Of a stretch of 8,081 bases of DNA, positions 3,153 through 8,081 are shown piece by piece. Origin of the DNA: Synergistetes bacterium JGI 0000079-D21 (GTDB lineage: Bacteria; Synergistota; Synergistia; Synergistales; 79-D21); contig AQRZ01000056.1 in assembly GCA_000402835.1 (NCBI GenBank), positions 13,225 through 21,305 of the forward strand. The letters are read 5' to 3'. Each line of letters starts with the position of its first letter. The first letter of the stretch is position 1. The notes beneath the pieces were generated by a model. That model was not told the origin of the DNA and made no database searches. It saw only the letters and a program-made list of their open reading frames with translations. A program made the translations under genes and the position numbers.

Positions 3153-5009
3153 TCATGACACGACGTCGACCCATGTCTCGTTGATGCAGGAATGGCCTCT
3201 CGGGGTGGTTTCCGGGCTGACGAGGACGTTCAGCCCTTCCGCCGCCTGCTCGACGACGACGGTTCCAGGCGCCATTCCAGAATCCAGGCGGACCCTGGCG
3301 GCGAACGTTCCACGGGTGTTGACCAGCGTCACCGCCTGTCCCTCCCGAAGGTCGAGCCGTTTTGCGTCGTCCGGGCTGAAGGCCGCATCGGGAAGAACCT
3401 CGGGCGGACCGGCCTGGCGCAGGTCCTGCCCGTTGGTGTAGCCCCTGGCGTGAACGGTGACAAGACGCAGGGATGCGTCCGGCCTGGCGGGCTCGTCGAG
3501 GCAATGGGGAAAACGGAAGGGCCCCCCTTGGGCCGGTTTCGGGCGCGCCCTCCACATCCCGGGCGCCAGCGGTTCCAGCCACTCCAGCGACCGGATGTGC
3601 CTGCCGATGGCCTCGAAGGCCGGGTGAAAGCGATCGGGCAGGCCGAGCCCTGCGGCCACTTCAGTCAGGACGTCCAGCTCGTGCCGGACTCCCGCGGGGG
3701 GCTCCGTGACGGGGGACGTTTCCTGCACGATGTCGTGCCAGTAGCTGGAGACGAAGTCCCCTCCGCGCTCCAGCGGGAGGCTGACTGGAAGGACGAGGGA
3801 GCAGCATCGGGCGGTGAGGCTCATGCGGTAGTCGAGGCAAACGGAAAAGGGGCAGTTTTCGAGAAAGCGCCGGATCGACCCGGCATCCCCGCACTGGGAC
3901 ACGGGGTTGCCCCGGACGATGAAGGCGGCCTCCACGGGAGGGTCCGCTTCCAGCAGGGCTTTGCCCATGCCGTTGCGGGAGACGGTGCGCGGGTTGGCAC
4001 CCGGCACGTCGAACACCCCCTCGGGAAGGAGTCCTTCCACCTCGGCGTTGAAAACGACTCCGCCGCCGGGGATCCCGCGGTTTCCGGTCAGAATCCCGAG
4101 CGAGTCCAGCACGGAGGCCAGGCTGGCCCCGGTCCTGGCGCGCTGCGGTCCCCATCCCATCCAGATGGAGAGGGGACGGGTTTCCAGCACGAAGGTCTCG
4201 AGCTCGTCGAGGCCCTTTCCGTCCAGTCCGGTTTCCTCGAGGACTCGCTTTCGATCGACGGCGAAAGCCAGCACAGAGAAGGCCTCGCCGCTGCAGGTCC
4301 CCTCCGGGAGCCCGTTTCGCCGGATCGCCCGGCCGCAAAGGTACAGGGCCAGGGCCAGGTCGCTGCCCGGCCGGATGATCCAGGCCCGGTCCGAGAAGAC
4401 CGTGGTCGGAGTGGTCCTCACCTCCACGGTTCCGATGAAGGCCCCCCGCTTTCGGGCCCGGTCGAGAAGGGGCATGAAGTGGACGTTCGTCACGGCAGGA
4501 TTTCTGCCCCAGAGGAGGATCCCGCGGCTTTCGAGGACGGATTCGGGCCGGGGGCGAGGACCGGACGGATCCGTCGCCGCAAGGCCCGAAAGCCCTTCAG
4601 AGCCGCAGAGGGAGCCCTTCGCGATCGTCCCCCCGCCGAGAAGGGCGGGGAAGAGCTCCTGGGCTTCGTTGCCCTTGAGGATGTTCCCGGCATAGCTGTA
4701 GTAGAGAACGGAACGGTGGCCGTGACGGGAAACGGCCCGGTCCAGCCCTTCCACGGTCCGTTCGATGGCCTCTCCCCTGCCGATGCGTTTCCACCCGCTA
4801 CCGTCCTTCAGCAGGGGGGACCTCAGGCGCAGCGGCCCTTGCATGCGGTTCGGCCAATCCTGCCCGCGCGGGCAGAGGAACCCCCGCGTGTAGGGGTGGT
4901 CGGCCCTGGGGCCGAAGGAAAGGATCCGGTCCCCGTCGACCTCGGCCGTGATGCCGCAGGAATCGGGGCAGTCGTAGGGGCAGACGGTGTGGCGGGTTTC
5001 TCGGGCCAT
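3153..5009 (-). CDS. Molybdopterin (Mo/W-bis-PGD) oxidoreductase, DMSO-reductase superfamily
   Basis: A 618-residue oxidoreductase expected to bind one [4Fe-4S] cluster and a Mo- or W-bis(pyranopterin guanine dinucleotide) cofactor. The cluster ligands are Cys10, Cys14, Cys18 and Cys46. Family hallmarks follow: a WGRNP segment at 167-171, MGWGPQRARTGA at 284-295, VRGNPVSQ at 365-372, the block LPLERGGDFVSSYWHD at 411-426 and, in the C-terminal cofactor-binding domain, the block containing TNGQDLRQ at 525-532. Cys135, in SLCGSEGLSGL, aligns by eye with the Sec/Cys that ligates the metal in formate dehydrogenases, so a Cys-ligated metal is likely; this is inference. There is no Tat or Sec signal and no membrane segment, so the enzyme should be cytoplasmic. 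No iron-sulfur or membrane-anchor subunit gene is next to it. The substrate is unknown. It is shorter than respiratory ArrA, NarG or NapA enzymes. ATG at 5009 has AAGGGA about 11 nt upstream, 15 nt after the SYLF gene stop. Confidence 0.88.
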   Translation of the reverse strand: MARETRHTVCPYDCPDSCGITAEVDGDRILSFGPRADHPYTRGFLCPRGQDWPNRMQGPLRLRSPLLKDGSGWKRIGRGEAIERTVEGLDRAVSRHGHRSVLYYSYAGNILKGNEAQELFPALLGGGTIAKGSLCGSEGLSGLAATDPSGPRPRPESVLESRGILLWGRNPAVTNVHFMPLLDRARKRGAFIGTVEVRTTPTTVFSDRAWIIRPGSDLALALYLCGRAIRRNGLPEGTCSGEAFSVLAFAVDRKRVLEETGLDGKGLDELETFVLETRPLSIWMGWGPQRARTGASLASVLDSLGILTGNRGIPGGGVVFNAEVEGLLPEGVFDVPGANPRTVSRNGMGKALLEADPPVEAAFIVRGNPVSQCGDAGSIRRFLENCPFSVCLDYRMSLTARCCSLVLPVSLPLERGGDFVSSYWHDIVQETSPVTEPPAGVRHELDVLTEVAAGLGLPDRFHPAFEAIGRHIRSLEWLEPLAPGMWRARPKPAQGGPFRFPHCLDEPARPDASLRLVTVHARGYTNGQDLRQAGPPEVLPDAAFSPDDAKRLDLREGQAVTLVNTRGTFAARVRLDSGMAPGTVVVEQAAEGLNVLVSPETTPRGHSCINETWVDVVS

Positions 5010-5804: not shown

Positions 5805-5828
5805 GGAACCGGATATTAGTTGTATTAT
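5799..5828 (+). promoter_or_regulatory. Putative promoter of the marR-arsM transcript
   Basis: TTGCAG (5799-5804) and TATTAT (5823-5828), separated by 18 nt, resemble sigma-70 -35 and -10 elements; the -10 matches the consensus at five of six positions, the -35 only moderately. Transcription would begin near 5835, giving a leader of about 27 nt. The -10 lies inside the inverted repeat at 5819-5833, so bound repressor should block it. Confidence 0.5.
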
Positions 5829-5840
5829 ACAACAGTTGTA
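5819..5840. promoter_or_regulatory. Overlapping inverted repeats, probable MarR operator
   Basis: GTTGTAT-T-ATACAAC at 5819-5833 is a perfect inverted repeat with 7-bp arms and a 1-nt centre. It overlaps a second one, TACAAC-A-GTTGTA at 5828-5840, with 6-bp arms. Together they give three alternating GTTGTA half-sites at a regular 9-bp step. MarR dimers typically bind imperfect 15-20 bp palindromes in the promoter of their own gene, and the marR gene starts 22 bp downstream. The AT-rich site stands out strongly against its GC-rich surroundings. Binding by this particular MarR protein is inferred. Confidence 0.7.
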
Positions 5841-5852
5841 GAAGACGACAGG
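5824..5852 (-). promoter_or_regulatory. Putative promoter of the SYLF-molybdoenzyme-ATPase unit
   Basis: A perfect TATAAT reads on the - strand at 5829-5824, within the operator. The best -35 candidate is CTGTCG at 5851-5846, with a 16-nt spacer, a poor match that suggests either weak or activator-independent low-level transcription. Transcription would start near 5817, leaving a leader of roughly 90 nt before the TTG at 5726. Confidence 0.5.
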
Positions 5853-5861
5853 GGGGATTCG

Positions 5862-6317
5862 ATGGCGTTTGAGCCTGCTGACCTTCGGGAGGCCCTTCGC
5901 AGGCTCTTCCGGAAAATGGGGTTCCTTGAAAGGGACGAGGCCCGTTGCTGCTCCATGAGCCTGAGCCGCTGCCAGGTCCTGGTGGAGATCGGGCGGAGCG
6001 GGGGTCTTTCGCTGGTGGACCTCGCCGCCCGGATGGGCCTGGAAAAAAGCAGCGTCAGCCGCCTGGTGGACGGCCTGGTCGAGGACGGCCTCGCCGAAAG
6101 GGCGGAATCGCTCCCGGACCGGAGGTACCTGGTGATCCGTCTGACGGAGGAGGGGAAGGCCCGCTTCCTGGAGATCGAAGAGAGGATGGATGTGTTGATC
6201 GGGCAAGTGTGGGAGCGTTTGCCGAGGGAGCGGAGGGAGCTCGTGCTGGAATCCCTTCTCGTCCTGGAGGAAGCGCTTGGCTGCTGCAGGAACGGTTGCG
6301 GACGGGAGGAAAAATAG
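5862..6317 (+). CDS. MarR-family transcriptional regulator, cysteine-rich
   Basis: A 151-residue dimeric winged-helix regulator. The DNA-binding core is at about residues 48-98: LVDLAARMGL and the recognition helix KSSVSRLVDGLVEDGL, followed by the wing with the conserved Asp86-Arg87-Arg88 and the LTEEGK segment. Helices before and after would form the dimer interface. Cysteines are unusually abundant and grouped: Cys29-Cys30 and Cys37 near the N-terminus, Cys141-Cys142 and Cys146 near the C-terminus. Such clusters could bind As(III) or another soft metal(loid), or respond to oxidation; this is inference. The ATG at 5862 is preferred because AGGGGGG lies 5 nt before it. An in-frame TTG at 5820 would add 14 residues but lies within the operator and has no ribosome site. 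The TAG stop is 2 nt before the arsM-like gene, so the two are surely cotranscribed, and the divergent palindromes suggest autoregulation. Confidence 0.9.
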   Translation: MAFEPADLREALRRLFRKMGFLERDEARCCSMSLSRCQVLVEIGRSGGLSLVDLAARMGLEKSSVSRLVDGLVEDGLAERAESLPDRRYLVIRLTEEGKARFLEIEERMDVLIGQVWERLPRERRELVLESLLVLEEALGCCRNGCGREEK

Positions 6318-6319: not shown

Positions 6320-8081
6320 ATGGAAGAGATCCGAAAGATCGTCGAAAAGAAATACGCGGAAGCCATCCGGAAGGGGTCGTGCTGCTGCGGGAGTTCGGCC
6401 GGAAGCTGCTGCTCGGCCCCTGGGGGGAAGGATGCCATCACGTCGGGCATCTACGGGGAAGAGGTCCTGGAGAAGCTGCCGGAGTCGGTGAAAAACCAGT
6501 CCTTCGGCTGCGGGTCGCCGACCCTGAAGGCGGGGATCCATCCCGGGGAGGTCGTCCTGGACCTCGGGAGCGGTGCCGGGATCGACACCTTCCTGGCGGC
6601 GGAACGGGTTGGCCCGGCGGGCCGCGTGTTCGGGCTGGACATGACCGAGGAGATGCTGGAAACCGCCCGCAAGAACGCGGCGGAGATCGGGGCCGGGAAC
6701 ATCACCTACATTAAGGGGACGATCGAGTCGATCCCCCTGCCGGACGAAAGCGTCGACGTGATTCTCTCCAACTGCGTGATCAACCTTTCTCCCGACAAGC
6801 CGGCCGTTTTCCGGGAAGCGTTCCGGGTGCTGCGCCCCGGAGGCAGGCTCTCCGTTTCCGACATGGTCTTCCTCTGCCGCGTGGATCCTGCGGTCCAGAA
6901 AAGCCTGGATGCCTGGGCGGGGTGTGTCGCTGGCGCGGCTTTCGTCGGGGACCTTGCCGGATTCCTCTCGGAAGCGGGGTTCGAGGAAGTGCGAATCGTC
7001 CCGGAAAGGATTTTCCGTTTCACCCGGGAAGAACTCGCGGGGATGTTTCCCGACCTGCCGCCTGAAGCCGCCGAGGAGGTGAGCGGAGCGCTGGCTTCCG
7101 CTTCGGTCACCGCCAGGCGGCCGGTGCAGCCTTGGATGGAGGGTGCCGACTACCGGATCCGGCCCGCCGAACCAGGAGACCTCGGCCGGGTGGAGGAGCT
7201 GCTGCGGGAATGCGGGTTGCCGGTCGAAGGCGTCGGGGAAAACCTGGAATCCTTCCTGGTGGCGGAGAAGGAAGGAAAAATCATCGGTTCGGCAGGACTC
7301 GAGATCGCGGGGGAATCCGCCCTCCTGAGGTCGGTCGCTTCCGCTGCCTGCGCCCGAAAGCGTCGCGTGGCGGAAACCCTGGTGAGGCGGGCAGTCGACC
7401 GGGCCGCCGAGTCCGGGGCCCGATCGGTTTTCCTGCTGACGGAAACCGCCGAGGGCTGGTTCGCCCGGATGGGGTTTACCGCCGTTTCCAGGGATGCCCT
7501 TCCGGCAGAGATCCGTTCCAGGTCCGCCCTCGAGGGCGTATGCCCTGCCTCCAGCACCTGCATGAAGCTTTCAACGGCCGTCTCCCCCGGAGGGGTTCCC
7601 CTGGTCGACAGGGAAAGGATCGCGCGGATCCTGGATTTCCTGGTCGAGATCGACGGGCTGAAGCGCGTGTACCGGGCCGGGTACCTGGCGGACGGGAGTC
7701 GTCACGAGAGCGACGCCGAGCACATGTGGCACCTGGGAATGTACGCGCTGGCCCTATCGGGGGAAACTGGCTTTTCGGGCGACGTCGGGCGCGTCTTGAG
7801 GCTCGTGCTGTGTCACGACCTGGTGGAGCTCTACGCGGGGGACACCTATGCCTACGACGAGGCCGGGGTGGAAAACCAGGCGGAACGGGAGGAGAAGGCA
7901 GCCCGGGCTCTTTTCGGGAAACTGCCTCCCGACCTCGGAGCGTTCTTTTACGGGGCCTGGCGGGAGTTCGAGGAGCAGGTCACGCCGGAAGCCCGTTTCG
8001 CGAGGGCGCTGGACCACTTGCAGGGCTTTGCCCAGAACGTGATCTCCAGCGGGAAATCCTGGACGGAAAACGGGATCACCC
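6320..8081 (+). CDS. arsM: Three-domain fusion: ArsM arsenite methyltransferase / ArsN2-type GNAT / HD phosphohydrolase (3' end outside window)
   Basis: Reading every codon from ATG 6320 to the window edge gives 587 residues with no stop. Residues 1-268 are an ArsM-type SAM-dependent As(III) methyltransferase: an N-terminal cysteine cluster (21-23, 30-31), FGCGSP with Cys64, SAM loop DLGSGAG at 81-87, [11 protein letters not shown] with Cys152 and AGCVAGA with Cys202. The 50-residue spacing of Cys152 and Cys202 equals that of the arsenic-binding Cys174/Cys224 in algal CmArsM. Residues 278-417 are an ArsN2-like GNAT domain: [30 protein letters not shown], and the terminal CPASSTCM with Cys408 and Cys414. 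Its acetyl-CoA loop reads RKRRVA (346-351), lacking the usual glycine. Residues 430 onward are an HD hydrolase with His468, His499-Asp500, Glu503, Asp508 and Asp565, the pattern of YfbR/HDDC2 5'-deoxynucleotidases. Neither domain junction has a Shine-Dalgarno before its in-frame ATG (7136, 7562). From the usual size of such HD proteins, a stop some 30-50 codons past the edge is expected. Confidence 0.88.

Follow-up and report, generated by a model that had tools for sequence, protein, structure and literature searches.

The window very probably encodes the product of a recent stop-loss fusion between two adjacent genes in a Synergistales-related lineage, with three independently acting, flexibly linked enzymes on one chain. 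The window is the whole stretch of DNA analyzed, 8,081 nucleotides from Synergistetes bacterium JGI 0000079-D21. Its last frame (6320-8081) opens at ATG 6320 and translates for 587 residues with no stop. ArsM (residues 1-268) comes first and ArsN2 (278-417) second; the third domain, HD_3/YfbR-like, begins near residue 431 and is truncated by the window end. In related genomes, the HD gene is separated from the arsenic genes by a GGDEF gene or adjoins them across a 12-nt in-frame spacer. The fused form completes this series, which gives an unusually complete picture of gene fusion in an operon.

Domains of the fused protein

The ArsM domain occupies 6320..7123 on the plus strand, as do all features described below. 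It matches the arsenite methyltransferase model NF008823 at 299.8 bits (cut-off 263) over residues 1-269, covering model positions 4-269 of 272. C64 (in FGCG), C152 (SNC), and C202 (AGC) are present and are, we assume, the conserved arsenic-binding cysteines of the family. An N-terminal CCC/CC cluster is found as well. This domain would methylate trivalent arsenic with SAM.

A 9-residue linker (7124..7150), seen as a gap between the domain matches, leads to the ArsN2-type GNAT domain at 7151..7570. NF040501 matches residues 289-417 at 132.0 bits (cut-off 125), covering model positions 3-132 of 133. The available text of PMC6465285 describes arsN genes from ars operons. Here, ArsN2 is joined to ArsM, and no other ars gene is recognized in the window. 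The domain may acetylate an amino compound, possibly an arsenical.

The presumed acetyl-CoA loop of this domain (residues 346-351, window 7355-7372) has an arginine in place of the first glycine of R/Q-x-x-G-x-G/A, which we take to be the GNAT motif. The loop reads RKRRVA, RKRRMA, or RKRRVG in all six close relatives. In more distant ArsM-ArsN2 fusions, the glycine is present in G026, G027, G019, and G175 and absent in G042 and G103; the loop is RKKGFG in G026 and G027 and RKKRFG in G042. From these residues, acetyl-CoA binding in the window-type ArsN2 may be different or absent.

After a linker of residues 418-430 (7571..7609), the HD domain runs from 7610 to 8081 (residues 431-587). Despite the truncation, it matches PF13023 (HD_3) at 139.6 bits (cut-off 22.5, residues 445-586) and PF12917 at 26.3 bits (cut-off 25.9). 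The domain is complete, to residue 628, in P0002, a 628-aa protein that is the full version of the fusion protein. P0002 and the window protein are identical at 582 of 587 residues. The only differences are at residues 2, 16, 27, 29, and 192, all within the first 192; residues 193-587, including the ArsN2-HD junction, are identical. The P0002 cluster holds 7 member sequences and 1 contig. P0002 is taken as a strain variant of the window protein; it supports the junction, though perhaps not as an independent assembly. The calculated mass of the fusion protein is about 67 kDa.

The three-domain fusion is confirmed at the sequence level. A reading made from the sequence alone had proposed a single open frame with three domains, and the 587 stop-free residues and the profile matches for all three bear this out. 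Its domain borders were correct to within a few residues.

ArsM-ArsN2 without HD

ArsM-ArsN2 is an independent gene of two domains. Five close relatives (P0003-P0006 and P0009) consist of ArsM-ArsN2 alone, at 419 aa, and stop at the point where the linker to HD starts. Of the 185 genomes searched in the phylum, eight have ArsM and ArsN2 in one frame (G001, G006, G019, G026, G027, G042, G103, and G175). G026 has two copies, and the G103 frame lacks the beginning of ArsM. P0026, a 422-aa protein from Peptococcaceae, has the same form. P0019 (447 aa) has the two domains reversed, with ArsN2 before ArsM, and no HD.

Three of these genomes (G026, G027, and G042) give neighborhoods outside the gene order of the window. 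In two of the three, the ArsM-ArsN2 gene is flanked by an ArsC-like gene on one side and ACR3 on the other (G026, L089 3188-6101; G027, L090 3730-6652). ACR3 scores above its curated cut-off in both, and the ArsC-like genes score below theirs, at 148.5 and 145.2 of 174.3 bits. Their ArsN2 matches to NF040501 (cut-off 125) are 126.2 in G027, above the cut-off, and 122.0 in G026, just below. Neither ArsC nor ACR3 was recognized in the 10 kb around the G042 gene, which has an ArsR/SmtB-family gene upstream. The sequence-only reading had called the pairing of ArsM and ArsN2 sensible, and the shared frame in eight genomes and the two ars neighborhoods agree with it. The single chain, together with the reversed P0019, connects the still uncharacterized ArsN2 with arsenic methylation in a testable way. 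No publication on ArsM-ArsN2 or ArsM fusions was found in the open-licence literature.

ArsN2-like domains are also joined to other partners. From their Pfam numbers, these are presumably a pyridine nucleotide-disulphide oxidoreductase (P0020 and P0021) and a SpoU-type methylase (P0022). In Haladaptatus caseinilyticus (NZ_CP111041.1, 326365-327432), a single tblastn piece covers ArsM and ArsN2 (query 59-415), and the record annotates two features. This locus is possibly another fusion, or a pair of adjacent genes that share a frame. Many ArsM-like matches in the phylum contain one or two in-frame TGA codons, e.g., those in G035, G036, G044, G105, and G136. Some of these codons may be end-of-gene stops, and others may encode selenocysteine, as in the ArsM selenoproteins of NCBIfam.

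Gene order in related genomes

Gene order was compared by tblastn of the window proteins in three related genomes. Synergistaceae bacterium UBA6083 (G002) has a P-type ATPase, a molybdopterin oxidoreductase, SYLF, GGDEF, and HD. MarR, ArsM, and ArsN2 were not matched within the 19.9 kb searched at this locus. In this 1.3-Mb genome as a whole, which may be incomplete, the best ArsM-like match has 35% identity over query residues 74-182. In Synergistales bacterium DFE_SYN (G001), a MarR-ArsM/ArsN2 cassette stands between SYLF and a GGDEF gene on the minus strand, with HD behind GGDEF. The identity of GGDEF was verified by the profile PF00990.

The third genome, G006, has SYLF, MarR, and ArsM/ArsN2, followed by the ATG of HD 12 nt past the TAA and in the same frame. 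GGDEF was not matched within the 19.8 kb searched. The locus aligns to P0002 residues 1-625 at 80% identity, with a single in-frame TAA. The order in the window (SYLF, MarR, and then ArsM/ArsN2-HD in one frame) matches that of G006; the DNA behind HD is beyond the window end. HD is therefore a separate gene of the chromosomal neighborhood, one that the arsenic cassette adjoins.

Four neighborhood proteins (HD, SYLF, the molybdopterin oxidoreductase, and the ATPase) pair the window with G006, with 52 sites against 17 and 10 for the alternatives and a branch support of 100. A single loss of GGDEF is thus the simplest account. HD alone leans slightly toward the window with G002, by 3 sites to 1 for the window with G006 and by 85% identity to 80%, which would allow two separate losses of GGDEF. 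The four-genome quartet is unrooted, and both gain of the cassette and its loss in G002 fit.

The first gene of the cassette, at 5862..6317, encodes a MarR-family regulator (PF12802, 53.7 bits for 5820-6314) that is syntenic in G006 and G001. It ends 2 nt before ArsM; its probable start, at 5862, was chosen by similarity to G006. Its cysteines are kept in all three genomes (window 5862-6317, L058 1043-1501, and L001 5546-6001). An RCC and an RC lie close to the N-terminus, and a CC and one more C lie at the C-terminus. This MarR protein could be the As(III) sensor of the cassette, in place of the usual ArsR. The sections available from PMC8060452 do not make a link between MarR and arsM.

The molybdopterin oxidoreductase (window 3153-5009) scores 115 of 666 bits, far under the formate dehydrogenase cut-off. 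It stands beside a heavy-metal P-type ATPase and a SYLF (Ysc84) gene in all four genomes, the window included. Phage records gave no near match. Plasmid records gave 733 matches, all below 60% identity and none with 80% query coverage in one place. The window has no Rfam match at the gathering threshold.

The junction

The junction in G006 reads ATG AAG CTC GAA CTA CGG TAA GGA GAG CCG GAA ATG GAA GAC CGG. The corresponding stretch of the window reads ATG AAG CTT TCA ACG GCC GTC TCC CCC GGA GGG GTT CCC CTG GTC GAC AGG. The window linker thus occupies the place of the former stop, the spacer, and the HD start site, which in G006 are TAA, 12 nt, and ATG. The codon at the HD start position is CTG (L428, 7601..7603). 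From 7565 to 7666 there is no in-frame ATG, GTG, or TTG; the next is at 7667. The two spacers are unequal in length and hardly align, so the mutations that removed the stop are not recovered.

GGAG stands 8 nt ahead of the HD start codon position in both sequences, before ATG in G006 and before CTG in the window. The GGAGG at 7589..7593 is probably the relic of the old HD ribosome-binding site. GGAGG lies 4-9 nt upstream of 56 of the 2367 codons in six window genes, including 5 of 131 CTG codons (that at 7601 among them). At this frequency, the relic is suggestive and not proof.

These gene orders and the junction suggest how the fusion would have formed. The MarR-ArsM/ArsN2 cassette would first have stood next to the HD nucleotidase gene of the chromosome. 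Loss of the GGDEF gene, which separates them in G001, would then have placed HD 12 nt past the ArsM-ArsN2 stop and in frame, as is still the case in G006. The window lineage would afterward have lost both this stop and the start codon of HD, giving a read-through protein. In practice, the nucleotidase would be made with, and controlled by, the arsenic cassette, presumably with arsenic induction.

The same junction allows a second product, which is unlikely and can hold together with the stop-loss fusion. HD alone would be made beside the full chain, from the old ribosome-binding site at 7589 and with CTG 7601 as a weak start. The GGAGG is 7 nt ahead of this in-frame CTG, at the site of the G006 ATG. 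Against this, translation rarely starts at CTG, and then weakly, and GGAGG at such a spacing recurs at the codons counted above.

The AlphaFold model of the fusion has a pTM of 0.49. Confidence is very low (pLDDT below 50) at linker residues 421-428, as well as at 24-29 and at 454-462 inside HD. The alignment behind the model had 17 rows, with P0002 alone spanning both parts, and contacts between the domains remain compatible with it. The model is consistent with residues 421-428 being a flexible tether, on which the three domains would work independently.

The HD domain

Among solved structures, the nearest to the HD domain in sequence are 3kh1 (the best, E 1.3e-41) and human HDDC2. The window protein retains H468, H499-D500, and D565, which by analogy with YfbR we take to be metal residues, and E503 and D508, which we take to be in the active site. 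All have the same letters in the nine alignment rows that hold the domain. In the portion of PMC5098729 available, relatives of this domain are 5'-nucleotidases for (deoxy)nucleoside monophosphates. A trypanosome member is a metal-dependent 5'-nucleotidase with its highest activity on dCMP, dUMP, and dTMP; for E. coli YfbR, the substrates are deoxynucleotides (PMC5098729, same portion). The HD domain of the fusion would continue as a metal-dependent 5'-nucleotidase.

Pairwise dN/dS (NG86) for HD is 0.140, 0.137, and 0.116 between the window and G006, G001, and G002, and 0.141, 0.105, and 0.075 among the other three genomes. The range over the six pairs is 0.075-0.141; dS is high (0.72-1.22), and the ratios are therefore rough. 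Changes seen only in the window fall at 6 of 155 sites, versus 8, 7, and 3 in the other genomes. These values show purifying selection on HD, with the putative catalytic residues kept. Relaxed selection on HD after the fusion was not seen in the pairwise dN/dS or in the window-only changes. Three intact domains in two variants fit short-term neutrality, but they also fit some benefit.

Rarity of the fusion and the role of HD

Three protein homology searches listed 23, 11, and 11 proteins; the first scored a region from the ArsM end through ArsN2 and HD, the second ArsN2, and the third HD. These searches reach sequences that share short words with the query, and the first scored the 7994 candidates that share the most words. 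P0002 is the only listed protein that joins ArsM or ArsN2 to HD. The search of the 185 phylum genomes scored at most six candidates per genome, and no listed match covers all three domains without a stop. The same architecture in several independent lineages was found neither by the protein searches nor in the phylum genomes. ArsM-ArsN2-HD is new in the data searched, and its component parts are ordinary.

The sequence-only reading had offered HD as an arsenic-chemistry module, in which the fusion fixes the stoichiometry or HD hydrolyzes or senses a nucleotide linked to methylation (SAM-derived or arsenylated). Such a selected three-module arsenic enzyme, in which the fusion might also channel a product, is improbable. 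It fits the intact domains and their purifying selection, and HD is already a close neighbor of ArsM-ArsN2 in G006, where the arrangement itself could have been selected. However, only a single listed protein has this form. An HD match at E of at most 1e-25 occurs in 15 of the 185 phylum genomes, and eight of these also have an ArsM-like match. Only in G001 and G006 are the two on one contig; in the other six, they may be unlinked or divided among contigs. In G001, G002, and G006, HD stands as its own gene, and the G002 locus is without the cassette. HD_3 in the listed proteins is fused to many other unrelated enzymes, among them what we take from Pfam numbers to be Maf, NUDIX, HAD, RmuC, and peptidase domains. 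In addition, methylation with SAM yields SAH, which is not a nucleoside monophosphate.

A role of HD in arsenic-nucleotide chemistry is thus improbable and not supported, as far as this part of the earlier interpretation goes; its domains, frame, and ArsM-ArsN2 pairing stand. In close relatives HD is separate, and ArsM and ArsN2 are joined. The separate genes bear on the functional claim and not on the existence of the fusion. They also caution against inferring function from one three-domain protein, in which HD would pass for arsenic chemistry where the neighbors show a separate gene.

There is an equally slim chance that selection favored both losses, first that of GGDEF and then that of the stop. 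Coupling of a phosphatase to methylation would then aid the cell under arsenic stress, e.g., through dNMP pools or the removal of arsenylated nucleotides. If this were true, the window would show a trifunctional enzyme of arsenic detoxification at an early stage of its formation.

The least probable account, an assembly or sequencing artifact that dropped the stop between adjacent genes from the consensus, could draw on the unproved independence of the P0002 assembly and is largely rejected, because near-identical P0002 shares the junction despite five residue differences, the window departs from G006 across the entire spacer and not by one indel, and the upstream gene order agrees with G006 and G001.

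Comparison with known systems

The stop-loss fusion combines parts that are each known in other settings. Nine aligned ArsM-ArsN2 proteins have the same domain order as the window protein, with 49-82% identity. The five relatives scanned match both NCBIfam models, with ArsN2 just under the cut-off in one. Unlike the window, none of the two-domain proteins or frames has HD before the stop codon.

The NCBIfam selenoprotein fusions ArsM_AhpD_UU (NF041537) and ArsM_DUF2284_UU (NF041536) resemble the window protein in joining ArsM to a second domain, as judged by the model names. They differ in the identity of that domain, and their cut-offs of 510 and 575 bits compare with 185 and 167 bits for the window protein.

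The HDDC2/YfbR-like nucleotidases (PDB 3kh1 and 4dmb) belong to the same family as the window HD and share its metal and active-site residues. They are stand-alone proteins of 200 and 204 aa, whereas in the window HD forms the C-terminal end of an arsenic enzyme. HD_3 is joined to other unrelated enzymes, presumably Maf, NUDIX, HAD, peptidase M29, RmuC, and a low-weight phosphatase, much as it is in the window. None of those listed carries ArsM or ArsN2, the partners that HD has in the window protein.
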